Below, piece after piece: positions 15,685 to 30,301 of a DNA stretch of 64,000 bases. Both the position numbers and the translations under genes were made by a program. The notes beneath the pieces are model-generated. The model made no database searches. It worked only from the letters and a program-made list of their open reading frames with translations, and was not told the origin of the DNA. The stretch's first letter is position 1. Every line of letters starts with the position of its first letter. The stretch is from an uncultured Lachnospiraceae bacterium. GTDB lineage: Bacteria; Bacillota; Clostridia; Lachnospirales; Lachnospiraceae. The stretch lies in NCBI GenBank assembly GCA_947626945.1, contig CANQUC010000005.1:1-64000 (forward strand). The letters are read 5' to 3'.

Positions 15685-15730
15685 ATGGATTCAAATGAAA
15701 CACATTTTTTTGAAATCATCATTTTTTTCA

Positions 15731-15759
15731 GTGACTTTTTCAGATAATAATGTTACAAT
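15731..15759 (+). promoter_or_regulatory. Predicted promoter of the DUF6603 operon
   Basis: GTGACT, 17-base spacer, TACAAT, in an AT-rich 130-base gap after the prfA terminator. The -35 match is moderate (TGAC core). It is the only likely promoter seen before the seven genes at 15814-29217. Confidence 0.5.
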
Positions 15760-15813
15760 TAAGAAAAATATTAAAAATAGTTTCAAAATGTAACGAAAAA
15801 GGAGACTGAAAGA

Positions 15814-17298
15814 GTGAAATCAGACAGCAATTTTTTCAAGGACAACAGGATCCTGCAGTTTTATGCCCACGATATCAGCAATTCCGACGGACGAATGAGT
15901 CTTTTCCCCGGCAATTTTGAGCTGGAGGGGATTCAAAGTGAAACAGTCTCCATGTTTCTTTCCGGGGAGGAAACAGATTTTATTTCTGAATCCGCAGATT
16001 TGCTCAGAGGGTATGAGCAGGTGAAAACAGCGTTTTTGCAGTTTGGACTGGAGGATCCCCGGTTTCAGATGCGAAAAGCGGATTATCTGACCCGGATCCC
16101 GGTGGTTTCGATTTCCGTCCGCGCAAAGGATCTGAACTTAAATTCTCCATTATGGAATGAAGACAGTCAGTGGTATTGCGTGTGTGTACATATGGATGAA
16201 ACGGCTGAAAAGTATGACCATGTCTGCATATTTGAGATTCCGGGAGTGGGAGAGCAGAGTTCTGAGGTTCCCTGCGAGATCCGGCAGGCGTCAGAACAGG
16301 ATGAAAGGAAGCTGAACGCGCTGTTCAGTCCCTATGTTGAGGAAGCTCATTTGATTTCCCCGGGAAAAAACAAAGAGGCAGTTTGGGCCGTTGGTCCAGA
16401 CACCGCGATTGACGCTGTTCAGGTGATGTATGTGGGCGCGGCTCTCTGCACCTGCCTGACGGCGGGAGACAGCGTTCCTCTTGGATATTTTGATATGGGA
16501 AGAGAAAGCCTGTACAGCAAGTACGTTTTGATCAATCGAAGTCCCGCTTACGGACAGTTTCTTTGTCAGAAAGAGGAAAACATTGTCGGCATGGTAAAGC
16601 ATGAAGCGGAGGTCCAGGGCAATCCCACGGTGATCATTTCCCATTGGCATGAGGACCATGTGAAAATATTATATGAAATGGCCCTGGCCTATTCTCAGGA
16701 CGGGCACTACAGAAATTTCTGGGAAAACGCGGTCTTTTTCTTCCCACAGTGCATCCAGAAGAAAGGCTGGGCCACTGTCCATGCCACAGCGATCCTGGGA
16801 GCCATTCAGAATGCGGGAAATCAAAATTATACAGTCATTCCCTATCAGAATTCCGACGAATATCGGCTGGAACGCCAGTACCAGAATCTGTCAATTTTCA
16901 GCTGTCACAGAAATGATCAAAGCGTATCCGCGCCAAATCCCCATGATCACGGGCTGTATGCCATTGTAACGCTTACAAGTGGAAAACGGGTGCTGTTGCC
17001 GGGAGACTGCAGCTATGACACCATGAGCGCCCAAAATAGCGGCGATTCCGTTTTGAAAGAATATGATTATCTTGTGGCCACTCACCATGGGGGAAAGTAT
17101 ACCCATACCACCGCAAATCATAAAACAGCCTACATCCCCACACCCAGGCAGGGAACGGCCTGCGATGCGATTTTTTCTGCCAACGGAGTGGCTTATGGTC
17201 ATCCAAACGCAACCGTTGTGAGTCAATATGGCAAAACCTGGAACTGTCTTCGCACAGATCAATTGCCCGGAAATTATGACATGTATATCCTCGGTTAG
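15814..17298 (+). CDS. MBL-fold hydrolase with extra N-terminal domain
   Basis: A 494-residue protein without signal peptide. Residues from about 205 form a metallo-beta-lactamase fold of the ComEC/Rec2-like branch: HWHEDH at 277-282 (two His, Asp, His ligands), bridging Asp in LLPGDCSYD at D398, and THHGG at 423-427. All metal ligands of a two-metal hydrolase are kept. Residues 1-200 are acidic, show no motif I recognise, and may bind a partner or substrate. The GTG start at 15814 follows AAGGAG at good distance. It leads the operon, 24 bases before the DUF6603 gene. Family members cleave phosphodiesters, nucleic acids or thioesters; the substrate here is unknown. Confidence 0.8.
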   Translation: MKSDSNFFKDNRILQFYAHDISNSDGRMSLFPGNFELEGIQSETVSMFLSGEETDFISESADLLRGYEQVKTAFLQFGLEDPRFQMRKADYLTRIPVVSISVRAKDLNLNSPLWNEDSQWYCVCVHMDETAEKYDHVCIFEIPGVGEQSSEVPCEIRQASEQDERKLNALFSPYVEEAHLISPGKNKEAVWAVGPDTAIDAVQVMYVGAALCTCLTAGDSVPLGYFDMGRESLYSKYVLINRSPAYGQFLCQKEENIVGMVKHEAEVQGNPTVIISHWHEDHVKILYEMALAYSQDGHYRNFWENAVFFFPQCIQKKGWATVHATAILGAIQNAGNQNYTVIPYQNSDEYRLERQYQNLSIFSCHRNDQSVSAPNPHDHGLYAIVTLTSGKRVLLPGDCSYDTMSAQNSGDSVLKEYDYLVATHHGGKYTHTTANHKTAYIPTPRQGTACDAIFSANGVAYGHPNATVVSQYGKTWNCLRTDQLPGNYDMYILG

Positions 17299-17322
17299 CA
17301 TGATCGGAAAGGAACGGATTTT

Positions 17323-20300
17323 ATGGATCTGATGGAATTATACCAAAAATGGGACGCGCAGCTGAAGCAGACAAAACAGGTCATTTTAAGCGGGCAGGAC
17401 TCCGGTCTTTTGGAGATGGATCTGCTCTGCGGCACTTTCGGAATAAAGGAAATTGTCCTGCGGGAGGGAATCTGCGCATGGGAACAGGAGATGCTTTCCC
17501 TTGCCGGAAAGTTTTTTGTCGGGGAAAGTCGCCTTGGACAGGATGGCGGGGATCAGGGCCTTGAGATGAAGCTGGCCATGAAGCTGGACAAAAACGGCCG
17601 GATTGACTGTGAAATCCGGATTCCGGACGTTGTGTTGGACGAAGCCGGATTGTTTTGTATCCGAAACGGGCTGCTGCACATCATTTTGCAAGAGGGAACA
17701 GACGCCTTTTTGGAAACCCTGAATGGGGAACTGCCGTTTGGAGGCCATGTGTTTCAGGTCAGCGCCCGGCGGCAGGATCAGAGAAAACAAAGACAGCTGC
17801 AGATCCGCAGCCGGGGCAGTCTGGACGTGATGGCTCTTCTGGCTTCTCTTCTGGGGATGGTGGGGCTGGATATAGAAGCGTTTCCGTTTTCCCATACAAG
17901 CCTGACAACAGACATGCCTTTGACTTTTTTTTATACGGAGCCTACCGGGTTTCTTACGGCGTCGCAGCCGGAAAAAAACAGGTATGATGATGCTTTGCGT
18001 CTGCGGATCGAGACCGGGCTGGGGTTTTTGGCAGGCGGTTCCTTTGGGATCGAGAACGCGGCGTTTTCCGTGGGAAAATGCGGTTCCCGGTACGATTTTT
18101 TCATAGACGGAGAAATGAAGCTGTTTCACGCAGGCATTCCTTTTCAGATCCGCTTTGGCGACGGATGCGTGATGTTTGCCGCCGGTCTGGATCAAAAAAT
18201 CCCGTTGAACAGTGTCAACGACATGGGAGCTCCCGTTGGGGAATCCCAGGTACTGGACCGGTTTCCGGAAACCCTGCGACCATCCGGAGCCGTATGTCTG
18301 CATACCCTTCAGCTGATCGTATCCTCTGACTTCAAAACGCTGTATGATTTTCAGATCACGGTTGAACTGGAGGATTCCTGGAATTTCTGCCCGGAGCTGA
18401 ATCTGTCGGTATCCGATCTGCTCCTTTCCTTTGGAATCTCTATGGGGATGAAGCAGTTTGCCCTTGCCGGAGACGTAACTTTCTGCAATGTAAAAAGCCG
18501 GCTTTCCGCAGCCATTTTATCGGAGAGCTCCGGACCGGCAAGCTGGTCTCTGAAGTGGCGGATGTATGAAGAGGAGTCTGTCAGTCTCACTGCGCTGGCA
18601 AAAAATCTGGCAGACGCCTTTGGGATCGCCACCCGGATAACCCTTCCCGATATTTCCGTGGGACATGTGGCCGTGGAATTTTCCAACCGGGGATTTTCTG
18701 TGGGCGCATTGATCACTTTGTCCGATAAAAAGCTGTTCTCTTCGGAGATGGATCTGCGGTTTGTCTGCGAGGGAAGCGGAGCAGACCGTAGATTTGCGGG
18801 AACCTTTCAGTGGAAAAGTCAAAACGCCGGGCTGACGGTGGAACATGTTCTGACAGAGTGCGGGGTAACCGACGGACTGGAGGCAGTTCCCGATTTTATC
18901 AAAAAGCTTGGGATTTCGCAGGTGACACTTGGCTATGAGTTTGCGGAAAATAAAATGACGGCTGTGATCAGGACGGCAGAAGCGGACGCCTTTGCCATTG
19001 TCCTGTATTTTGAGGGAACAGAACAGAAACAATGTCAATACATTCTTGCCGCTGAGTTTCACCATCAGATCAGCCTTGCGGATCTGCCGGCAGCAGGCGG
19101 CGTGTCGCCGTCCCTGAAAGAGATCAGGATTGAGGCGTTTTCCCTGACAGCGGCCTCCTGCAGCAGAGAAAATGTAACCATACCGGACATGATGCAGGGC
19201 CGTTCTGTCAAAAAAGGCATCACCCTTTCCTGCCAAATGTCTGTAAAGAAACAGAATATCCCGCTGGAACTGCATGTTCTTGGAGATTCGCCAGAAGAGG
19301 CCCAAAAGCAGCTGCCGGCGGCAGAGCGGACAGAGCAGAAAGGGGAAAAAGAGATCCCGCTGCATCTGCGCCTGGGACCGCTGGAGCTTGTAAGCATCCG
19401 CCTGGGGTACAGGGACGGCAGCGTGACATTTGGAATTACCGCCCAAATCCAAAACGACGCCCTGTGCTTTTCCCTGGAAGGCCTGACAGCGGCGGTCAGT
19501 CTTGGGGACGGAAAGATTTCATTTGGCCTGGATGGCATCTCTGTAAGACTTACCACGGATACGGTAGACGTAAGAGGCGGTTTTCTCAATCTGGGAGATG
19601 AAAATTACAGAGGAACGCTGCTGCTGCAGGCCGGCCAATTGTGCCTGACCGCGGTGGGAGCATATCGGGAGAAACCTTTCCGGTCTTTTCTCGTCTTTGC
19701 TTCCATGAAAGGAAACCTGGGAGGACCGCCCTGCTTTTCGGTTAAGGGACTGGCCGCGGGATTCGGATGGCAGCACAGCCTTTCGATTCCGGAAGTGACA
19801 AACCTTCAGCAGTTTCCTCTTTTGCAGGCGGCGGCAGGGACATTGGATACCGAAGAGCTCTTGTCTCATACAGACAGCTACTTTCCCATACAGGAAGGCC
19901 AGCTGTGGATTGCCGCGGGGGTTTTGGTTCAAACGTTTCAAATGGCGGATTCCGCCGCGGTTCTGTCGGTGAGTCTGGGCAGGGAAACAGAGGTGACTCT
20001 TACCGGCCAGACGCTGCTGAATGTACCCTTTGATGAGGAAAAAGCGCCTATTGCCCACGGGCTGCTGCTGTTAAAGGCTTCTTTCCGGCCGTCGGAGGGC
20101 CTGATCTCTGTGGAGGGAGCCCTTTCCCAGGAATCCTATGTGATCTGCAGGGAGTGCCATATTACCGGGGGATTTGCTTTTGATACATGGTACGGCGGCC
20201 CCCACGCGGGAGATTTTGTGCTTACTATGGGAGGATATCACCCCTCCTATGAAAAACCGGCCCATTATCCGGAGGTAAAACGGCTGGGTCTTTGCTGGCG

Positions 20301-21414
20301 GATTTCCGATCAGCTGTCTGCGGAGGGGGACGTCTACTTTGCGCTGACCCCTTCGGCGCTGATGGCCGGCGGCGGAATGAAGTTTTTGTTCAGCACCTCC
20401 AGTGTGGATGCCTGGCTGGAGGCAAGAATCCATATGCTGCTGCAGTGGAAGCCTTATGCGTATGATTTTGATGTGGGAGTCTGTGCCGGCGTGCGGGTTC
20501 ATCTTGGCTGGATCCGGTTTGGCCTGGAGCTGGGCTGCGACCTTCATATATGGGGACCGGAGTTTTCGGGAAAAGCGCGCATGAAGCTTTGGTGCATTTC
20601 CTTTACGGTGGCTTTTGGCGCCGGAAGTCCAACCGGGGCCAGTTCCATCGGGACAGAGGAATTTCGGAAATCCTTTCTGGAATCTGAAAAAGGGGAGCAG
20701 GCCGGCGGTTTCCGGCTGGCAATTGCCCGGGGTATTTTGAAAGAGCAAAAAACAAAACAGGGAGAACCGGAATGGACAGTGGCTCCGGAACAGCTGCAGC
20801 TGGCGCTGCAAACAGCAGTTCCGGTGAAAAGCCTCCTGTTTGACCCGGGAGATTCCGCAAGGGAACCTCACCCTGTCTATCATGCCACGGAAGACTTTTA
20901 TGTGCGGCCCTGTAAAAAATATCTGAGCCAGTCGGAACTGACGGTGCGGATCAGCGCCGTAAAAGAAAACGGGGAGGCAGATGGGGAAAGAAGAAAATCC
21001 GCGGAAGAGCGTTTTGTGGCGGAGGCACAATATGAGCAGCTGCCCGCGGCTTTGTGGGGACTGCCGGATGAACGCGGGGAGACGGTCACATGCTGCGCCG
21101 GAATCCGGATCAGCGTGAAAAAAGAAGAACCCGCAAAGCTGCAGTTTCGCAGGGCGCCGGTGGTTATGCAGGAAGAAAGGCTTCTCCTTTCGCCGCCGCA
21201 GCTGGAACTGAAGCAGTATGATGACAGGCCGGTGTTTGACTACATCGCCCGGGCGGCGGATGGCGATCTCTCGGAAAAAAGGCGGCAGCTGTTTGACGGG
21301 CTTGGAGAAGCATATGAAAAGATACAGGTGGCAGACTGGGCAAACAGAGCGAAAGAGCTGTTCTGCCAGGAGCCAAAAGCAGTTGACACAGGAGGAATGG
21401 CTCAATGGATGTAA
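17323..21414 (+). CDS. Giant DUF6603-type beta-rich protein
   Basis: A 1363-residue protein with no signal peptide or membrane span. The C-terminal half matches what I remember of DUF6603: LGGPPCFSVKGLAAGFGW near 800-816, then GDFVLTMGGYHPSYEKPAHY, RLGLCWRISDQLSAEG, YFALTPSALMAGGGMKF and DLHIWGPEFSGKARM near 965-1090. The N-terminal 750 residues are many short alternating strands in repeating units, likely one long beta-rich stack. A helical, acidic tail of about 230 residues ends the protein. The family is found in scattered bacteria and fungi without an assigned function to my knowledge. The stop overlaps the next ATG by 10 bases. The fold suggests a scaffold or a hydrophobic groove; that is inference. 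Confidence 0.75.
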   Translation: MDLMELYQKWDAQLKQTKQVILSGQDSGLLEMDLLCGTFGIKEIVLREGICAWEQEMLSLAGKFFVGESRLGQDGGDQGLEMKLAMKLDKNGRIDCEIRIPDVVLDEAGLFCIRNGLLHIILQEGTDAFLETLNGELPFGGHVFQVSARRQDQRKQRQLQIRSRGSLDVMALLASLLGMVGLDIEAFPFSHTSLTTDMPLTFFYTEPTGFLTASQPEKNRYDDALRLRIETGLGFLAGGSFGIENAAFSVGKCGSRYDFFIDGEMKLFHAGIPFQIRFGDGCVMFAAGLDQKIPLNSVNDMGAPVGESQVLDRFPETLRPSGAVCLHTLQLIVSSDFKTLYDFQITVELEDSWNFCPELNLSVSDLLLSFGISMGMKQFALAGDVTFCNVKSRLSAAILSESSGPASWSLKWRMYEEESVSLTALAKNLADAFGIATRITLPDISVGHVAVEFSNRGFSVGALITLSDKKLFSSEMDLRFVCEGSGADRRFAGTFQWKSQNAGLTVEHVLTECGVTDGLEAVPDFIKKLGISQVTLGYEFAENKMTAVIRTAEADAFAIVLYFEGTEQKQCQYILAAEFHHQISLADLPAAGGVSPSLKEIRIEAFSLTAASCSRENVTIPDMMQGRSVKKGITLSCQMSVKKQNIPLELHVLGDSPEEAQKQLPAAERTEQKGEKEIPLHLRLGPLELVSIRLGYRDGSVTFGITAQIQNDALCFSLEGLTAAVSLGDGKISFGLDGISVRLTTDTVDVRGGFLNLGDENYRGTLLLQAGQLCLTAVGAYREKPFRSFLVFASMKGNLGGPPCFSVKGLAAGFGWQHSLSIPEVTNLQQFPLLQAAAGTLDTEELLSHTDSYFPIQEGQLWIAAGVLVQTFQMADSAAVLSVSLGRETEVTLTGQTLLNVPFDEEKAPIAHGLLLLKASFRPSEGLISVEGALSQESYVICRECHITGGFAFDTWYGGPHAGDFVLTMGGYHPSYEKPAHYPEVKRLGLCWRISDQLSAEGDVYFALTPSALMAGGGMKFLFSTSSVDAWLEARIHMLLQWKPYAYDFDVGVCAGVRVHLGWIRFGLELGCDLHIWGPEFSGKARMKLWCISFTVAFGAGSPTGASSIGTEEFRKSFLESEKGEQAGGFRLAIARGILKEQKTKQGEPEWTVAPEQLQLALQTAVPVKSLLFDPGDSAREPHPVYHATEDFYVRPCKKYLSQSELTVRISAVKENGEADGERRKSAEERFVAEAQYEQLPAALWGLPDERGETVTCCAGIRISVKKEEPAKLQFRRAPVVMQEERLLLSPPQLELKQYDDRPVFDYIARAADGDLSEKRRQLFDGLGEAYEKIQVADWANRAKELFCQEPKAVDTGGMAQWM

Positions 21415-22664
21415 CGGAAGAAAAAACCATTGTTTTTACAGATGACTGTCAGGTCCCGCTGCAGGACGGCCGGTATCAGGTCTGTATGGAGCAGAAAACG
21501 GAACTGTGGCCGGGGCTTCAGTCGCAGCCGCTGAACTTTCGGGTAGAGGGGCCCAGATTTGATCTGGGAGAAGAGGGAGTGCACAGCTGTTATCCGCCGG
21601 ATCAGACCACGGGCGGATATGGAAGCGTGCTCCCCCATGTTGTGCTGAACCGAAGAACGCTTCCCTGGGAGCGCAGAGAAACAGACCGGGAATCCGGGGA
21701 AAGAAAAATACCCTGGATGTGCCTTTTGCTCCTTTGGGAGGAAGAGATCCCGCAGCTGCGGCAGGAAGAGGCAGAAAATGCCTTAAACCCGGAAAAAGCA
21801 AAAGAGGTGTATATTCCGGGCCTTTCCCTGGATCAAAATGAAAAAAGCCAGATCTGCCGATTTATAGATCTGGAGAAAGAGCTGTTTTTAAAAATCGCGC
21901 CAAGGATCAGGGAACTGCCCTGGCTCTGCCACGGAGGATATGCCGGAAAAGACGGTCTGGCAGCAGTATCGGACCCGGAAAAAGAACCGGAGGACAAGGG
22001 CTGGTACAGCACAGTGATGGCAAACCGTTTCCCGGAATCCTCTGAGGCGGGCGCAAAAAATCATGTGTACCTGGTTTCTCTGGAAGGATACGGGGACTAT
22101 GAAGAAGCGCTGCCCAAGGCCGCCCAGTCTCATGTAAGGCTGTTTGTGCTGCACGACTGGGAGTTTATTTCCCATAAATCACAGTATGGGTTTGGCCACA
22201 GAGTGCAGGAGCTTTCTGTGGGATATCTGACAATGCCCCTGGAAAAAGCGTCAGAAAACCTGGCTCCCATCCTGCAAAACGGTTATGTGCCAATGGAGCA
22301 TCGGCTGCGGAACGGCGAGCGGACGGTTTCCTTTTACCGAAGCTGCTGTGTGCCAAAGCCCTGGAAACAGGCGGAGGTGGAAGCAGACACGGCGGACGGC
22401 CTGTACGGCTATGATCCCCGCTGGGGCGTACTGGACGTGTCCTATGGGGCGGCATGGCAGGCGGGACGGCTTGCGGCCCTGAACCGGAAAACCGTGGCGG
22501 AACAGATCATGGAGCGCAGGAGAAAGGATCTGATGGAAGTAAGACGCAGGGTGCACAGGCAGCTGCTGCAGGAAAATGTGCAGGGCCTTTTGCCGGATGG
22601 GAATGAGACGGTAGGGCATTCCGTTCTTACCTTGTTAGAGGACATAGGAGGAAGACTGTTATGA
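21405..22664 (+). CDS. Unknown protein of the DUF6603 operon (419 aa)
   Basis: No named domain recognised. The N-terminus is beta-rich (residues 1-60) and contains HSCYPPDQTTGGYGSVLPHV and RRTLPWER near 65-95, motifs I associate with uncharacterised proteins that travel with DUF6603 genes. The middle is a mixed fold; the last 60 residues are a basic helix (RRKDLMEVRRRVHRQLLQ). There is no signal peptide and no membrane span. ATG 21405 has GGAGGAA upstream and lies inside the end of the DUF6603 gene, so translation is coupled. The stop overlaps the next start as ATGA. The tight overlap implies fixed stoichiometry in one complex. Confidence 0.7.
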   Translation: MDVTEEKTIVFTDDCQVPLQDGRYQVCMEQKTELWPGLQSQPLNFRVEGPRFDLGEEGVHSCYPPDQTTGGYGSVLPHVVLNRRTLPWERRETDRESGERKIPWMCLLLLWEEEIPQLRQEEAENALNPEKAKEVYIPGLSLDQNEKSQICRFIDLEKELFLKIAPRIRELPWLCHGGYAGKDGLAAVSDPEKEPEDKGWYSTVMANRFPESSEAGAKNHVYLVSLEGYGDYEEALPKAAQSHVRLFVLHDWEFISHKSQYGFGHRVQELSVGYLTMPLEKASENLAPILQNGYVPMEHRLRNGERTVSFYRSCCVPKPWKQAEVEADTADGLYGYDPRWGVLDVSYGAAWQAGRLAALNRKTVAEQIMERRRKDLMEVRRRVHRQLLQENVQGLLPDGNETVGHSVLTLLEDIGGRLL

Positions 22665-23467
22665 AGTCCTGGTTTGATTATGAGCGGTTTGACAGGGAAT
22701 TGGGACAGTTTCAGCCCCATGAGGGAAACGGTGCCGGTCAGCAGGAAAAAGAAGATGTGGAAGCTTTTCTGGAGGGACTTTCTCTTCTGGAGGGGCTGCC
22801 TCTGTCTTATCTGGTGCCAAAGGCAGACATGCTTCCGCCGGAAAGTCTGCGGCTGTTTTGGATTGACGAAACGTGGATACGCGCCTGTCAGGCAGGCGCG
22901 CTGAGCCTGGGGAAAAATTATGAGACAGACCGCCGCCGTCACAGGCTGCTGTTTGGATCCAAGGCAAAAGAAACTGACCGGCAGCAGGAATCCGGAGGAA
23001 ACCGGATGGGATTTTTGCTTAGGTCGTCTCTTGTGTTGGGCTGGCCCGGAATGAAACCGGAGTGCGTGGATGGAAACGGTCAGCCCGTAAAGCTGCTGAC
23101 TCTGCGAAAATACGGAAAAGATATTCTCCTGGGCATTGGGGAGGGAGAGATCGCCCGGCTGATCTTTCGGGAACCTCAGGAGGCGCTTCACTATGGGACA
23201 GAAGCCTCTCAGAATGGCGGAACCGTCAGCCTGGTGTCCATGAAAGCCGGAAAAGAGGGAGAAGATCTGCGCCTGATTCAGGAGGCGCGGTACAGAGACC
23301 CGGAAAAAGGGGTTTTGCAGGTGGAGCAGCTTGCGGGGGAAATCGAGAAAAAACTCAAAGGTGCCGACGCTCTGGAAGGAACCCTTTCCCCTGCCATGTT
23401 TGCGGCAGAGCTGCTGTACCGGACTCAGGTGACGGCGCTGGATACAAAAAAGGAGGAACGGACATGA
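22661..23467 (+). CDS. Unknown protein of the DUF6603 operon (268 aa)
   Basis: No catalytic motif is recognised. Landmarks are LLEGLPLSYLVPKADMLPPE near residues 43-62, WIDETWI-type segments (LFWIDETWIRACQAGALSLG), then RMGFLLRSSLVLGWPGMKPE near 108-127. The same sequence signature occurs, from memory, in uncharacterised genes next to the large DUF6603 proteins of other bacteria. The last third (LIFREPQEALHYG, then a helical tail) is well ordered. ATG 22661 overlaps the previous stop (ATGA), and its own stop overlaps the next ATG, so it is coupled on both sides. Probably a structural subunit; function unknown. Confidence 0.7.
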   Translation: MKSWFDYERFDRELGQFQPHEGNGAGQQEKEDVEAFLEGLSLLEGLPLSYLVPKADMLPPESLRLFWIDETWIRACQAGALSLGKNYETDRRRHRLLFGSKAKETDRQQESGGNRMGFLLRSSLVLGWPGMKPECVDGNGQPVKLLTLRKYGKDILLGIGEGEIARLIFREPQEALHYGTEASQNGGTVSLVSMKAGKEGEDLRLIQEARYRDPEKGVLQVEQLAGEIEKKLKGADALEGTLSPAMFAAELLYRTQVTALDTKKEERT

Positions 23468-26400
23468 CAGAAACATTCCTGTATGTACCGGTATCGCTGC
23501 AGGCCCTTGTTCATGGGCGGCACAATGAGGGGGCGGCAGACATGACGCCGGCCTATGATCTGCTTGCCTATGAGCCGCCTTTTGGAAACAGTGTATCCAA
23601 CACCTGGTTTTCCCGCGGAACAAGAGAACCCGGCATTCATCTTCACTGGGCAATGCCGGACGGGCTGCTTCACGGAAAACAGAAAGAGGACGGGACCATG
23701 ATGTTTCCCGCGCTCCCAAACAGGTTTCTTTTGCAGCGCCTCTGGGAACAGGATGGCGTGGTTTGCAGAAAAGCGTGGCTGATCTACAGCGATTTTGTGG
23801 GGTCGGATCCCGACGACCGGATCCAGACTACCGTACCGGTTTTTGTATGCCGCGACGGTATCTGGCAGGGAGGGGGCAAAAACGGCCAGCTGTACGGTTA
23901 TCAGGGCGCGGTGACGGAATACGGACAGCCCCTTGACAAAGAGGGATTTTATCTGGACAGACTTACCGGGATCGGTGACGGAAACCCGGCATTTGCCGCG
24001 TATTACCCCGACAGCTGCAGTGTGTTTGGATTTTATGACGATATGAAAGACGTGGAGCAGGGTACTTTTTCCTATCTGCTGACAGGATATTATGAAAAAG
24101 GAGATCCATTGTCCGGGCCGCAGCCGGAGAAGCCGGAGGATCTGGAATGGCAGATCCGGGAAGGCGGGGCTGTCCCCGCCCGGACGATGATCCATGGATA
24201 TGTGAAACAGGTAGTATGGAGGGGACCGGACGAATATTATGAGGACCGGATCCCAAAGGACCCGGTTCAGATTTATATGGGAGACAATACGGCAGAGGCG
24301 CTGTCCGTGTTGATCCAGGATCAGGTGCCGGATATTGCGGGGATGGAACGGCTGATGAATTATATTCAAAACGACGCCGTGCAGGTGCTGGCCAATGAAA
24401 GTGATCCAGACGGACTGATCAAAGGAGAGGAATTGCTTCACAGTAAAAAATTTACGGCGTGGGAAGGAGGCTGCCTGTGGGAGATCCGGGATGAACGGGA
24501 ACAAGACCGGCTCTCTCAGACAGAAGAGGACAAGGAAAAGGAAAACCTGCTGCAGGAACAGCTGAGGCGCCTGAACTGCCTGCAGGAACAGCTGAACCGG
24601 GCCGAAGAGCAGGCAGGATCCCATCGGGAACAGCTTTACGGGGCCTGGTGGATGTATGTGACAGAGCAGTGGGAGAAAGAAAAAAAAGCTCCCGTTCCCC
24701 AGGAGATCAGCCGGGAGATGGATACCCTTACCCGGCTGCTGGAGCAGGCAGAAGCCTGGGGAAAGGAGGCATCCCTTCTGCGGGAAACCATAAAAAAACG
24801 GCTGGAATCCTCCGGACGCTGTTTATACAGGCAAAACGAAAACCGGTATTACAGACCCAACCCGCCGGTGGTGCTGCTGGCAGGTCCGGGCGTCCTGCGC
24901 AGCTTCCGCCAGGGTGTGACCACGCAGAACGGAGAATTGCTTCCCTGCCGCAAAACATTGCTGCAGTCTTTGTGTGTTCCGCTGCCGGACCAAAAAACCG
25001 AAATCGGGGCAAAGGATCTGGAAGCCGCAATGCAGCCGCTTGCTACGCTGCTGCCGGATCCCGTACAGGCGCTGCTGACAGAATGTCTGCTGCTGGATGA
25101 TCTTTTCGCGGCGTATGTGGCGAAAATCGCGCTGAAAAAAGCAGGCCTGAGTGTTTCCCAAAAAGAGCTGCGGCAGCTGGCCGACCAGGTGGCAGAATTG
25201 CAGCGACAGCTGCGGGAGACAGACGGGGCGCCAAAGGCGGCGTCCTTTGAAAACTGGCAGCAGCCGTGGAATCCGTTGTTTCTTCAGTGGAGGGCGTCCT
25301 TTGCCCCTTACCGGACCACCCTTTCTCCGGACAATTCGTTTCAGGAATTTGTATTGGGTGAACTGGACCTGGAGACGGGAAAAGAGGGGCCCCAGGAGCA
25401 AAAGCCATTGGAGATCAAAGGCCGGTCTCTGATGCTGCCTCACGGTGTGATCCATCTAAGCGAGATGCTGCAAAGGCTGGTGGAACTGTACGGAAAAGAG
25501 GGGGAGACCTATGAAAAGCTGCAAAAGGCGGCCCATGCCATTCAGGGAATGAATGTGCTGTCCCAGCAGCTGACCGGCTTTCTGGAAGCTTTGGCGCAAA
25601 AGGAAGACGTTCCCCTCTTTCCCCTGATCCCTCTGGAGAATGTGCCGGAGACGGAAGCAGTGACGGCGCAGGCAAACAGACTTCTGCAGGAAAAGGATAC
25701 GGGGATTCACAGTCCTGTGCCGGGATATGAGGAATCCTCTTTCGTGCCTGTGCGGGCGGGAACTCTGCGGCTGGAGCAGCTGTGGCTGGTAGACAGTTTT
25801 GGCCAGATTCAGGATATACCGGTAAAGCAGGAGACTGTACGGCAGACAGAGACTCTGAGGCGGCAGAAAGACGGCGGCATTGTGCTGCCGCCCCGGTTTG
25901 TTTCTCCTGTACGGGTACAGTTCCGGTGGCAGGACAAGACGCCGGTGTTTGGCTGTGTGATGCCAAACTTTCTGGACCGGTGTCTGGTGGTCTATAACGG
26001 ACAGGGAACGCTTCTCGGTTCCATACAGGAAAAAAAGAAAGGCGCTCTGTGGATCAGCGCTCCGGGGACCACAATTTGTCCCCGGGAGATTCCCGACGGG
26101 GAAGGACATCTTCAGGCGTTTATAGAAAGCTTTCTGGGAGAAGACAATGACCGTCTTGCAAAGCTGCTGGCGGATCTGGACAAACGGGCTTTTGCGGTGG
26201 AAGGCGGCAGCCGTTTTTTGCAGCTTTGCTTTGGAAGTGTTTTGTTTCTTGGATGGGCATGCCTGGGACTGGAAGAAATGGGGCTTTCCATCCGTTCCAG
26301 TATTTGGGGCGGAAAACCGGATACCCATGGCTATGAAACCCAGCCTGTGACCGTAAGGCTTGGAGATGTGAGAAAGGCAGGCGACGGCCTGGCAGGCTTT

Positions 26401-26835
26401 TATATCCATGAACAGGATCCGGCCGCCTCTTATGACCGGTTTTATTCCTGCCTGGAGGGCACGGCGGATCTGAAAATTTCCCTGAGGGATGAGCCGGCAT
26501 GGCTTACCCTGCTGTTTGTGCCTCTGGGAGAGATCAGCATCCGCACCGGATTTCTGCCCGCAGCCTCTGCCCCGGCATTTCCACGGCGGGGAGAAGACAG
26601 GCTGGAAGAGCTGGATATGATGTTCCGGCTGATGCCGATCCCAGGAGTTTTGGAGGAACTGTCGGTTCCCCTGCCGGGAAATCTGGAGGATTTTTGGGAG
26701 TTTTGCTATATGGAGAACACAGAGCGGGAAAACACAGCCGCGGATCTGAAGCCTCCTTCCGAAAGTCTGCCGCCGGACGGCATGGCGCTGCTGGAGGGAT
26801 TTATGAAAACAAAGAGGAAAAAGGAAAAACAGTAA
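23464..26835 (+). CDS. Unknown large protein of the DUF6603 operon (1123 aa)
   Basis: The ATG at 23464 follows GGAGGAACGG and overlaps the previous stop. Frame-open sequence upstream (from 23062) belongs to the preceding gene in another frame. The N-terminus has TFLYVPVSLQALVHG, GIHLHWAMPDGLLHG (residues 58-72) and FPALPNRFLLQRL, which look like a conserved family start. Residues about 340-445 form a long charged coiled coil (LLQEQLRRLNCLQEQLNRAE). RYYRPNPPVVLLAGPGVLRS follows near 460-480. The second half is mixed alpha/beta with no known motif. No signal peptide or transmembrane span. By size and coiled coil it could be a scaffold partner of the DUF6603 protein. Confidence 0.72.
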   Translation: MTETFLYVPVSLQALVHGRHNEGAADMTPAYDLLAYEPPFGNSVSNTWFSRGTREPGIHLHWAMPDGLLHGKQKEDGTMMFPALPNRFLLQRLWEQDGVVCRKAWLIYSDFVGSDPDDRIQTTVPVFVCRDGIWQGGGKNGQLYGYQGAVTEYGQPLDKEGFYLDRLTGIGDGNPAFAAYYPDSCSVFGFYDDMKDVEQGTFSYLLTGYYEKGDPLSGPQPEKPEDLEWQIREGGAVPARTMIHGYVKQVVWRGPDEYYEDRIPKDPVQIYMGDNTAEALSVLIQDQVPDIAGMERLMNYIQNDAVQVLANESDPDGLIKGEELLHSKKFTAWEGGCLWEIRDEREQDRLSQTEEDKEKENLLQEQLRRLNCLQEQLNRAEEQAGSHREQLYGAWWMYVTEQWEKEKKAPVPQEISREMDTLTRLLEQAEAWGKEASLLRETIKKRLESSGRCLYRQNENRYYRPNPPVVLLAGPGVLRSFRQGVTTQNGELLPCRKTLLQSLCVPLPDQKTEIGAKDLEAAMQPLATLLPDPVQALLTECLLLDDLFAAYVAKIALKKAGLSVSQKELRQLADQVAELQRQLRETDGAPKAASFENWQQPWNPLFLQWRASFAPYRTTLSPDNSFQEFVLGELDLETGKEGPQEQKPLEIKGRSLMLPHGVIHLSEMLQRLVELYGKEGETYEKLQKAAHAIQGMNVLSQQLTGFLEALAQKEDVPLFPLIPLENVPETEAVTAQANRLLQEKDTGIHSPVPGYEESSFVPVRAGTLRLEQLWLVDSFGQIQDIPVKQETVRQTETLRRQKDGGIVLPPRFVSPVRVQFRWQDKTPVFGCVMPNFLDRCLVVYNGQGTLLGSIQEKKKGALWISAPGTTICPREIPDGEGHLQAFIESFLGEDNDRLAKLLADLDKRAFAVEGGSRFLQLCFGSVLFLGWACLGLEEMGLSIRSSIWGGKPDTHGYETQPVTVRLGDVRKAGDGLAGFYIHEQDPAASYDRFYSCLEGTADLKISLRDEPAWLTLLFVPLGEISIRTGFLPAASAPAFPRRGEDRLEELDMMFRLMPIPGVLEELSVPLPGNLEDFWEFCYMENTERENTAADLKPPSESLPPDGMALLEGFMKTKRKKEKQ

Positions 26836-26854
26836 TCAAAAAAGGAGGGAACAT

Positions 26855-28144
26855 ATGGATTCCTATCAGGTAGAATACCGGCTGCAGCCGGGCTGTGTCA
26901 CGGTTTCCACCAATGAAAACCAGATGGAGTTTTTTATTACAAATCCCACGGATGAGCCGATCATTTTCAAAAACGACGGACAGGTAACCGTGAAAGAATA
27001 TCCTGCTTTGGGAGAAAACTGCAGAGCAAACGATCCGCCCGGATTTGAACTGATTTTTTCCTATGGAAGCGGCGACGGGGATCTGAATTTGGCGGAGATC
27101 TGCAGGAATATTACTGTCAGCCGCGTTCAGGGCGGCAGCTGGCAGATCATGGAAAAATATTCGGGAAAAGGCCCTTACTGGCAGATCATTCCCCGTGGAA
27201 CCACTGTGCTGAAGCCAAAGGAAAGCCTGATCCTGCTGCTGGACAATCTTTCCGTAAACGATAAGCGGGGTGAAACAAATCTGACTGTGAATTTCAAAGC
27301 GCCCGGGATCCAGCGGAAAGCGGAGCTTGGAATACTGAAACTGGCAAAACCGCAAATCCGCCGGTTTGGTACGGAAAAGGCCCGGTATGAGCTGGAGGAT
27401 GAGGTCAGGTTTACATGGACACTGACAGATTATGTCCCTGTAGAGGCCAATCTGCTTTTGGACGGCATTCCCGTTTCCGGAAACGGAACCGTTTTGAAAA
27501 AAGTGACCAAAAAAATCCACCGGCTTCAGGTGCGGAATCAGGCCGGCTACCTGACAGAAGCCCAGACGGAGATTGCCTTTGACTGTTATAGCAAAATAGA
27601 GATCACAAAGTGCGGTTCGGGAACGGTAACGGTCTGCTGGGATACCAGAAGCATGAAAAACTGCCGTCTGAACGGTCAGGCGGTGGGAAAAAGCGGCAGC
27701 AGAGAGTTTCCGGTGACAGGAGACACAGAATTTACCCTAACCGCCATCCGCCGGGTGACGGAAATAACCGAAAAAAAGACGCTGTCCTTTTTTATGCCGG
27801 TGATCCTTTCCTTTCAGGCAAATCCGCAAAAAAAGCAAGCGCGGCCTTTGGAGGGTTTTCTTTCTTTGGAGCAGGTGAAAGATCCGGCGGCGGTTCCAAA
27901 GACGGTAGTGCCCTACGCGGCGCCGGATCCGGGACCCATTCCTCCGCCGCCGGCCCGGATCACGATTCAGTTCTCCTGGAAAACAAAAAACACAAACAGC
28001 TGTGAAATCCCGGAGGCGGGAATCCGCTCAAAAAATCCCTCAGATGCCTGTGTCGGTTCCGTGGAGAGAAAGTGTACCTCCGTAATCCTGCGGGCAACGG
28101 GAAATTACGGGTATCAGGTCACAATGACAAAGAAAATCCAATAG
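26855..28144 (+). CDS. Beta-sandwich (Ig-like) protein of the DUF6603 operon
   Basis: A 429-residue protein, almost wholly beta. Residues 1-150 resemble an Ig-like fold (MEFFITNPTDEPIIF, then PKESLILLLDNLSV). Two or three further repeats follow, with VRFTWTLTDYVPVEANLLLDG and a matching SKIEITKCGSGTVTVCWDT. A Pro-rich hinge (PDPGPIPPPPA near 365-375) leads to a last 50-residue beta unit with three Cys. No secretion signal. ATG 26855 follows AAAGGAGGG. The gap to the radical SAM gene is 14 bases. The Cys-bearing C-terminus is one candidate target of that enzyme; this is speculation. Confidence 0.7.
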   Translation: MDSYQVEYRLQPGCVTVSTNENQMEFFITNPTDEPIIFKNDGQVTVKEYPALGENCRANDPPGFELIFSYGSGDGDLNLAEICRNITVSRVQGGSWQIMEKYSGKGPYWQIIPRGTTVLKPKESLILLLDNLSVNDKRGETNLTVNFKAPGIQRKAELGILKLAKPQIRRFGTEKARYELEDEVRFTWTLTDYVPVEANLLLDGIPVSGNGTVLKKVTKKIHRLQVRNQAGYLTEAQTEIAFDCYSKIEITKCGSGTVTVCWDTRSMKNCRLNGQAVGKSGSREFPVTGDTEFTLTAIRRVTEITEKKTLSFFMPVILSFQANPQKKQARPLEGFLSLEQVKDPAAVPKTVVPYAAPDPGPIPPPPARITIQFSWKTKNTNSCEIPEAGIRSKNPSDACVGSVERKCTSVILRATGNYGYQVTMTKKIQ

Positions 28145-28158
28145 AAGGAGAAAACCCA

Positions 28159-29217
28159 ATGAAATATAAGCTGGAAACATGTGTGTGGGAGATCACGCTG
28201 GGATGCAATTTCCGCTGCAGACACTGCGGTTCCTCCTGCGCGGAGCCTGCGCCCGATGAGCTGACAACAGAGGAGGCGCTGGATCTGGCAGATCAGATCG
28301 GCGTTTTAAAGCCAAGATACCTGTCCCTGACCGGGGGAGAGCCGCTGATGAGAAAGGACTGGTCTCTGATCACGGAAAGACTGACGGCGCAGGGCATTCA
28401 GGTCTGTATGATCACCAACGGTTCGCTGATCGATGAAGAGACGGCAGAAAAAATGGAAAGGGCGGGCCTTTCACTTGTTTCCGTCAGTATGGACGGCACA
28501 AGGCAGATCCATAATTACATGCGGGGCGTGGACTGCTATGACAAAAGTAAAAGAGCATACCGCCTGCTGTCAGGGACAAAGATCCTCAGGGCGGCAAATA
28601 CTACCCTTGTAAAGGAAAATCTTTCCTGTCTGGAGGAAATGCGTCTGGAGCTGATGGAGCTGGGAGTACAGAAATGGCAGCTGCAGATAGGGCTGCCGGT
28701 GGGAACGCTGAAAAAAAACAAAGCCTCCGTAATTGATCCGGAGGATCTGCCCGGGGTCATTGATTTTGTCTATGAGGCAAACAGCAAAGGGGGCATTCAG
28801 GTGACGCTGGCGGAAAGCGCCGGGTATTACAGCAAAAAGGAGGCGATGGCCGCCCGGATGGCGGATCCCCTGGGACGGCTCAGCGTGTTTCGGGGGTGCA
28901 ACGCGGGCATCCGAAGCCTTGGGATCCTTCAAAACGGAGACGTAACCGGCTGCACATCCATCCGAGATCCCCGGTTTATAGAGGGAACCGTCCGGAAAAG
29001 ACCGCTGTGGGAAATCTGGCAGGATGAGCAGGCATTTGCCTGGCGCCGGCAGATGACAGTTCAGAAAGAGCAGCAGGGCTTTTGCGGACGTTGTCCATAC
29101 GCAGAGGTCTGTCTGGGAGGATGCACCAACACAAAACTGACAACTGCCGGAAGCATTTACAAAGAAAACAGGTACTGCGTATATCACCTGGCACACGCCT
29201 GCCAGAATCAGACATAA
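28159..29217 (+). CDS. Radical SAM/SPASM-domain enzyme
   Basis: A 352-residue enzyme with the [4Fe-4S] site C-x3-C-x2-C at C16, C20 and C23 (GCNFRCRHCG), the SAM-binding LTGGEPLM near 66-73 and a radical SAM barrel to about 230. A C-terminal SPASM region follows, with Cys in FRGCNAGIRS, VTGCTSIRDP, CGRCPYAEVCLGGC and a last YCVYH. SPASM enzymes of this kind modify peptides or proteins (PqqE, AlbA and anaerobic sulfatase activators). No short precursor peptide is evident beside it, so the target may be one of the operon's larger proteins. ATG 28159 follows AGAAGGAG; an upstream in-frame start overlaps the previous gene and is less likely. Confidence 0.88.
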   Translation: MKYKLETCVWEITLGCNFRCRHCGSSCAEPAPDELTTEEALDLADQIGVLKPRYLSLTGGEPLMRKDWSLITERLTAQGIQVCMITNGSLIDEETAEKMERAGLSLVSVSMDGTRQIHNYMRGVDCYDKSKRAYRLLSGTKILRAANTTLVKENLSCLEEMRLELMELGVQKWQLQIGLPVGTLKKNKASVIDPEDLPGVIDFVYEANSKGGIQVTLAESAGYYSKKEAMAARMADPLGRLSVFRGCNAGIRSLGILQNGDVTGCTSIRDPRFIEGTVRKRPLWEIWQDEQAFAWRRQMTVQKEQQGFCGRCPYAEVCLGGCTNTKLTTAGSIYKENRYCVYHLAHACQNQT

Positions 29218-29276
29218 AACGCCTCTGCCAGTCGAAGACTGTCGAACGATTTTTCCGTAAAATCAGGCGCCGGGCA

Positions 29277-29335: not shown

Positions 29336-30301
29336 ATGTATTACAGAGCCTGGCGCAAAGTTCTGGAACACATCAAACAGCGGTTTATGGATGAGACAGG
29401 GCTTACAGAGCAGGATTTTTTTTGTGAGGGCGAGATTGACGCCATACAGGAGACCTTTTACCTGCGGGATATGAAAAACAACCTGATCGCGGAACCGTCC
29501 CCCGTACATCAAAAAGAATTTTCATCCGGCAAAAGCGTGCTTTCCACTTTCCGCTATCTGGCATCTTCCTATGCCATGGCTTTCAATCTTCTGGGAAACA
29601 ATGCGGTCAGGCTGATCGGAAACCGTCACGGGATTCTGCCCGGAACATACAGAATCACATACAAAAAAACATTAAGAGCGCTGAAAAGTAAAAATGCCTT
29701 TGTGACCATTGACGGAGCACTGTTTTCCGAGGACGGGACAAGCTGTCTCTGCATGGAGATGAAAATGCTGGAATGGTTTGTATTTAAGGTAAACCCCATC
29801 AAAGACACCTTTATGGAGGCGGACAATTATTATTTTCCGGATACAGCTCCGGTGTTCATTGAGACCATTCAGATGCTGGTGCCTTTTTTAAACAGGGACG
29901 GCTGGGAGCATTTCGGCAGTTTTCAGAACTGCGATGAATTTCTGATTATGCGCCAGCTTCTTGGAATTTACAACGTGCTTCGCATGGAAAAGGAGTCCCG
30001 TAAAGAAACCGGGCAGGCGGATGAGAAGCCGGGGCTAAAGCAGCTGACGCTGGCCTCCGTTTACTGGTCCGCAAAGAACCCGGACTGCTACGGCCATTAC
30101 CGGGAACGGATCCTGAAAGCGGAAAAACAGATGAAAAATGAAATGCGGTTTCTGCGGGAGATCATCCAGCCGGTGAGAGACCTGTTTGAGGATACGCTGG
30201 GCGTGGCGCTGCAGGTCATTGCCATAGATCACAGGGAACTGCTTGCAATGCTGGATAAGACGCCGGAAGAGAGACGGTGGCTGGAGCGATATGAGATTTG
30301 A
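29336..30301 (+). CDS. Putative PD-(D/E)xK nuclease-fold protein
   Basis: A 321-residue protein. The segment SSYAMAFNLLGN (residues 81-92), the Asp in TIDGALF (D126) and MEMKMLEW with E141 and K143 together follow the D-x(n)-E-x-K pattern of PD-(D/E)xK nucleases, and recall the PGN_0703-like group of putative restriction endonucleases. The remainder is helical; the C-terminus (ERILKAEKQMKNEMRFLREI) may form a coiled coil. ATG 29336 follows GAAAGGGGCGG. Two small coiled-coil proteins follow at once. The fold call rests on a short motif and is moderate; a role in nucleic-acid cutting or defence is inferred only. Confidence 0.5.
   Translation: MYYRAWRKVLEHIKQRFMDETGLTEQDFFCEGEIDAIQETFYLRDMKNNLIAEPSPVHQKEFSSGKSVLSTFRYLASSYAMAFNLLGNNAVRLIGNRHGILPGTYRITYKKTLRALKSKNAFVTIDGALFSEDGTSCLCMEMKMLEWFVFKVNPIKDTFMEADNYYFPDTAPVFIETIQMLVPFLNRDGWEHFGSFQNCDEFLIMRQLLGIYNVLRMEKESRKETGQADEKPGLKQLTLASVYWSAKNPDCYGHYRERILKAEKQMKNEMRFLREIIQPVRDLFEDTLGVALQVIAIDHRELLAMLDKTPEERRWLERYEI

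Follow-up and report, generated by a model that had tools for sequence, protein, structure and literature searches.

The 64,000-nucleotide stretch analyzed here (the window), from contig CANQUC010000005.1 of an uncultured Lachnospiraceae bacterium, carries seven tightly packed genes, A to G, centered on a DUF6603 gene whose product and partners recur together across bacteria. All seven lie on the forward strand and span positions 15814 to 29217, with gaps of 24 (A-B), 19 (E-F), and 14 bases (F-G) and overlaps of 10 (B/C), 4 (C/D), and 4 bases (D/E), a layout in which the coordinates agree with a preliminary description of this DNA. Gene A (15814 to 17298) has a GTG start with the ribosome-binding site AAAGGAG and encodes a 494-residue hydrolase of the ComEC/Rec2-type metallo-beta-lactamase (MBL) fold. 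It is followed by B (17323 to 21414; 1363 residues), C (21405 to 22664; 419 residues), D (22661 to 23467; 268 residues), E (23464 to 26835; 1123 residues), F (26855 to 28144; 429 residues), and G (28159 to 29217; 352 residues from the ATG at 28159), a radical SAM/SPASM gene. Among the seven products, only B (DUF6603) and G (Radical_SAM plus SPASM) matched Pfam families above cut-off, and nothing over cut-off was obtained for A or for the partners C, D, E, and F. The match of B to DUF6603 (PF20248), a family without assigned function, covers residues 680 to 1160 (E value of 8.8e-125; 417.6 bits against a curated cut-off of 27 bits) and makes B a member; no other DUF6603 gene is present in this genome. 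A and G had already been described as an MBL enzyme and a radical SAM/SPASM enzyme, and these assignments were confirmed by motifs and by Pfam, respectively.

To determine how widely these genes are distributed, 84,980 species genomes were surveyed. A first contig scan with the DUF6603 protein of the window alone found no relatives, and an eight-member alignment was too diverse; a scan with a four-member alignment recovered them, giving 135 confirmed relatives and 80 loci that were kept. The final locus set also contains plasmid and genome loci, counts the window and a small number of duplicate or short loci, and is limited in number by the degenerate patterns used in the search. Searches with phmmer and the window proteins recovered 93 loci with B, 90 with C, 85 with D, and 84 with E. 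Nearly all loci of sufficient length carry the four together, and contig ends explain most cases in which a member is absent. At about half of the loci C and D are fused into a single protein, and two gene orders dominate, B-C-D-E and E-(fiber)-(enzyme)-B-CD. Loci with a named phylum belong to Bacteroidota (20), Bacillota (17), Cyanobacteriota (13), Pseudomonadota (11), Acidobacteriota (6), Actinomycetota (5), and Chloroflexota (2), and the core is thus present in at least seven bacterial phyla. Because B, C, D, and E recur together over this range, their arrangement is far beyond chance. DUF6603 itself is rare (2/398 genomes of the phylum and 3/299 of the family), and in an independent test on the 299 family genomes the D and E profiles each matched exactly the three that carry DUF6603. 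The homologues are therefore found together rather than scattered, and the conserved set foreseen in the preliminary description holds for B, C, D, and E and extends to F, leaving undecided its suggestion that they form a large cytosolic assembly.

By profile comparison, C, D, and E are not paralogues of one another. A phage origin is unsupported, since the DUF6603 protein and two alignments found nothing when viral contigs were scanned, and tblastn with B, C, and E gave no match in phages. Beyond the parts described here, the surrounding genes are a mixture of ordinary genes, and no secretion, phage, or defense family recurs in the 25 most frequent Pfam families of 110 neighbor genes. One unusual locus, on a Paenibacillus sonchi plasmid (L012, 12927 to 17898), carries CD and E, but no B was detected within that stretch; these genes lie near an IS630 transposase gene and may be a decayed copy. 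In Marinomonas rhodophyticola (L048, 2138 to 19746), C, E, and the lipase gene are split into several frames, and a close relative of this copy in another Marinomonas (L055) has its frames open.

Comparison within the genus bears on how the operon came to its present site. In the two other genomes of the genus, a homologue of gene H comes directly after prfA, at a distance of about 140 and 195 bases, whereas in the window about 13.5 kb with A to G separates the two. Sequence common with these relatives, the GTCGAACGATTTTT motif before H, returns within about 20 bases after the G stop codon, which places the inserted segment at approximately 15700 to 29234 on the forward strand. Since the congeners show an empty site with only a short prfA-H spacer, A to G appear to be an acquired cassette, and the whole operon, radical SAM gene included, is most simply read as one acquired unit. 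Neither a transposase nor an integrase was seen in the cassette, and its G+C content differs little (0.534 versus 0.510). DUF6603 is absent from one congener (G555), which was screened; the second (G692; 79% complete) lay outside that screen. H itself (29336 to 30301; 321 residues, no family match) lies outside the cassette, is conserved beside prfA in the genus, and belongs to the ancestral context. As for G, all its NCBIfam equivalog scores fell below cut-off, and a G-like match was found at only one other, distant, locus among 93. Judged from these comparisons, G arrived with the cassette, yet it is not a conserved part of the system.

Gene A occupies a position whose content varies from locus to locus. 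Hydrolase families account for 39 of the 72 proteins encoded directly before B, Pfam having been run on one representative set per cluster rather than on every member: Lipase_3 (14), MBL (10), DNase-I-like Exo_endo_phos (8), ComEC-like MBL (4, including A of the window), and one each of Peptidase_S8, HNH, and Peptidase_M91, the last described in Pfam as "Effector protein". To follow the history of this slot, its classes were mapped on the B tree (40 labeled rows, 7 classes). At least 11 changes of class are needed, whereas a single origin for each of the seven classes would need six and shuffled labels 21.9 on average; the slot is accordingly both inherited, in part, within clades and repeatedly swapped. 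It had been proposed that a cytosolic assembly is matured or regulated by the MBL and radical SAM enzymes encoded at the two ends of the operon. The tight operon with an enzyme at either end and the arrival of both A and G with the cassette would fit such a role, but elsewhere unrelated hydrolases replace A, and G is missing from nearly all loci, with the core unchanged in both cases, so that we consider maturation very improbable. Because unrelated hydrolases replace one another in the slot, A fits better as a cargo or effector than as a dedicated maturase. In one branch (L045, L050, L057-L059, L063, L078, and L089), small genes of about 173, 216, and 246 residues recur upstream of the lipase gene and precede a lipase-B-C-D-E cluster in which B reaches 3100 to 3300 residues; the 216-residue product has a weak collagen-like match, and these genes are possibly further components of that branch.

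The A protein carries the metal-binding motifs SHWHEDH, GDC, HHGG, and GHP (H277-W-H279-E-D281-H282, D398, H424/H425, and H463). A ComEC-type motif (HxHxDH or HxDxDH, GD, HHG) is kept in all four members of the A family, i.e., A of the window and its counterparts in L011, L024, and L068, with H279 replaced by D in L068, the residue that ComEC-type proteins have there. The A profile matched the other slot MBL family, A18 (probability of 92, E value of 5.6e-7), which in turn matched ComEC structures strongly (5e-29); the direct match of A to ComEC/Rec2 structures was weak (0.008). A nuclease function has been suggested for the MBL domain of ComEC (PMC5031224). A is probably a nuclease or phosphodiesterase. 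While A18 matches the ComEC/Rec2 MBL domain and A of the window has the same motifs, the slot MBLs differ from ComEC in being stand-alone, soluble proteins without its membrane channel, and A is longer at its N terminus by about 190 residues. For a DNase-I-like slot protein (L066), the PDB gave no sequence match.

A second variable position lies after E. The N-terminal 200 residues or so of F form a conserved post-E domain, and an iterated F profile matched 78 proteins. Of the 78 loci with a gene directly downstream of E, 52 encode a protein with this domain at that position. These post-E proteins have a common N-terminal or central domain while the remainder differs, the variable parts including Laminin_G_3 (LamG), the Peptidase_S74 fiber chaperone, a Gp53-like fiber tip, F5/8 type C (F5/8C), Kelch, and other propellers. 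The recurrence of this domain in sequence comparisons marks F, which had earlier been called Ig-like, as the fifth component of the system. LamG domains are also inserted in C or E at four loci (L025, L026, L091, and L092). Furthermore, Hint auto-processing proteins are encoded near the operon in 11 loci, mostly of Lachnospiraceae and other Clostridia; they have a common N-terminal part, followed by the Hint domain where the contig reaches far enough. Examples are found at L061:5569-8577 (reverse strand) and L017:19148-21010; the complete ones mostly end just after Hint, and one continues with DUF6765.

A conserved core combined with an exchangeable hydrolase and an exchangeable binding part resembles the pattern of effector delivery. 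No defining structural part of the known systems was found with this pattern, and we propose, with a probability of about 45%, that the locus encodes a mobile, modular, and polymorphic effector-delivery complex made of a cargo enzyme, a conserved core, and a variable binding subunit, similar in operation to the known systems but a member of none. B, C, D, E, and the conserved domain of F would bind one another and make up a conserved multiprotein vehicle, the interchangeable hydrolase cargo, here the ComEC-type MBL, would come from the gene before B, and the C-terminal part of F would supply interchangeable target binding. A fuller version, a non-contractile delivery machine in at least seven phyla with B as translocator and with exchangeable nuclease, lipase, or protease cargo and binding subunits, is put forward a little more tentatively. 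The chief rivals are intracellular defense with exchangeable effectors and extracellular processing of lipids or polymers.

To obtain clues to the role of the two largest proteins, their structures were predicted with AlphaFold. The model of B residues 440 to 1363 (67 sequences; predicted local distance difference test [pLDDT] of 83.5, predicted template modeling score [pTM] of 0.67) is a long series of antiparallel strands, giving a predicted giant amphipathic beta-meander of barrel- or belt-like form. Its best fold matches were ApoB100, at the top, followed by chaperone-usher pores, LptD, porins, and VDAC. The predicted strands alternate hydrophobic with polar faces, their amphipathicity being 2.94 compared with 1.58 ± 0.19 in shuffles. 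Such alternation would suit a pore, a belt covered with lipid, or a shell of large size, and ordinary sheets as well. In a delivery complex, B would be the likeliest component to insert into the membrane as a pore, or to act as a shell or lipid-coated belt carrying cargo across. The model of E (pLDDT of 85.4, pTM of 0.84) has a central helical hairpin (residues 354 to 447). Foldseek searches of the PDB and BFVD returned no match with an E value below 0.001, and in the VIA-align and Foldseek lists only this hairpin aligned, with coiled coils; the hairpin superposed on 100 residues of TcdA1 (Z score of 7.7, root mean square deviation [rmsd] of 3.8), but unrelated coiled coils aligned likewise. 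Profile searches of PDB sequences gave nothing significant for B, C, or D, and for E only designed and natural coiled coils through the hairpin. E is thus, at the level of prediction, a confident fold that resembles nothing solved.

The resemblance of B to ApoB100 raises a different possibility, in which an ApoB-like lipid-binding belt, catabolic slot hydrolases, and lectin-type substrate binders would serve the processing of polymers or lipids outside the cell or at its surface. Lipases are indeed the commonest slot enzymes, and LamG and F5/8C are glycan-binding domains in general. However, the use of glycans or lipids is poorly matched by nucleases and a ComEC-type MBL, the neighbors include no recurrent family for transport or sugar utilization, and Sec signals are absent, so that this explanation seems doubtful to us compared with the delivery complex.

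The absence of such signals was evaluated with a crude hydropathy test of N-terminal segments, which detected no signal peptide in any of the A to G products, in line with the preliminary description. Across loci, signal-like N termini were found in 1/56 slot proteins, 0/65 F-like proteins, and 0/83 C proteins, compared with 110/549 other genes at the same loci. The crude threshold was exceeded by 20/70 E proteins; the model of E from the window begins with strands, not a helix. Because hydrophobic N termini hardly occur in slot enzymes, C, or F-like proteins, Sec export appears unlikely. The missing Sec signals favor a cytosolic location, but the fiber- and lectin-type domains in F-type partners and some C and E proteins are typical of outward-facing particles. 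A delivery complex would have to leave the cell without Sec signals, and release by lysis or another non-Sec route is our guess.

Alternatively, the system could remain inside the cell for defense or stress response, the core sensing an intruder and the exchangeable hydrolase acting as the intracellular effector. Some defense systems swap nucleases, lipases, and proteases as effectors, and the hydrolase repertoire seen here is like theirs; the lack of signal peptides, the patchy distribution, and the cassette insertion would also suit such a function. On the other hand, PADLOC gave no match to anti-phage systems for B to F and just 16 bits to one model for A, Pfam recognized no nucleoside triphosphatase, cyclase, or other usual sensor in the core, and fiber, lectin, and Peptidase_S74 domains would be unusual for intracellular sensors. 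G matched viperin models more poorly than other radical SAM families. The absence of the core from phages and viral contigs is neutral in this respect. Overall, we regard defense as unlikely, more so than polymer or lipid processing.

We then compared the proposed delivery complex with known systems, none of which, contractile injection systems included, was matched by Pfam or by the predicted folds of B and E, in keeping with the preliminary description. Tc toxins are large multi-subunit vehicles with a variable cargo enzyme and binding parts, and would be alike in working if our proposal holds; however, A to G have no Pfam match to TcA, TcB, or TcC subunits, and Foldseek returned nothing significant for E. 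Variable effectors and tail-fiber-like receptor-binding domains (Peptidase_S74 and Gp53-like) are common to these loci and to extracellular contractile injection systems and tailocins, but sheath, tube, baseplate, and AAA ATPase are absent from the Pfam matches of A to G and from the 25 commonest neighbor families. A Paenibacillus polymyxa plasmid (p-YT9A; L006, 5433 to 11981) carries two baseplate-V-like genes, a DUF4280 gene, a GH-E nuclease fragment, and an ankyrin gene; the baseplate-V-like group lies about 7 to 14 kb upstream of DUF6603 and is probably a separate cluster on the same plasmid. Polymorphic toxin systems (PMC3482391) are alike in their interchangeable hydrolase domains and nearby Hint auto-processing domains. 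Their pattern of interchangeable hydrolases on a conserved carrier is seen here with seven hydrolase classes, except that the enzyme has a gene of its own, placed before the conserved multi-gene core, and is not the C-terminal tip of a long secreted protein. A search of the open-access PubMed Central literature for DUF6603/PF20248, with subscription journals and preprints outside its scope, returned no described system, consistent with the earlier view that this one is undescribed. If the proposal is correct, the short list of bacterial protein-delivery machines would gain a vehicle with no relation to contractile systems, Tc toxins, or secreted polymorphic toxins, in hosts as different as Lachnospiraceae of the gut, cyanobacteria, Bacteroidota, and relatives of Streptomyces. 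Should delivery prove wrong, five conserved families without assigned function (about 3600 residues here) are brought together as one system, one of them, E, with a confidently predicted fold unlike anything solved.

Several results weigh against the delivery complex. No enzyme was recognized in 33 of the 72 slot proteins, the slot is empty in several loci, and some slot Pfam scores are marginal, HNH lying below cut-off and several Exo_endo_phos matches just above it. BLAST detected no common docking domain among the slot enzymes, and no immunity gene was recognized, although small immunity genes were not the object of a dedicated search. Six rounds did not bring the F profile to convergence, and F of the window has no recognizable lectin or fiber domain. 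Finally, the fold matches of the B model are generic for beta-meanders, with rmsd values mostly of 9 to 16 Å, and do not separate a pore from a belt or a shell; given these large values, only the class of large beta-meander is a safe assignment for the predicted structure.

The operon was also examined for expression signals. Terminator-like sites inside it number 37 on both strands, compared with 18.3 in shuffles. As described earlier, none of those detected is a clear strong forward-strand terminator, but several weak ones exist. The single promoter predicted earlier corresponds to a site 5′ of A (15731 to 15759, forward strand) with 9/12 sigma-70 consensus bases and a TG before the -10 element (extended -10). 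The site is present, but its signal does not rise above chance: promoter-like sites in the region number 14 compared with 8.9 in shuffles, not clearly above expectation, so that a promoter at this position is plausible and nothing firmer.
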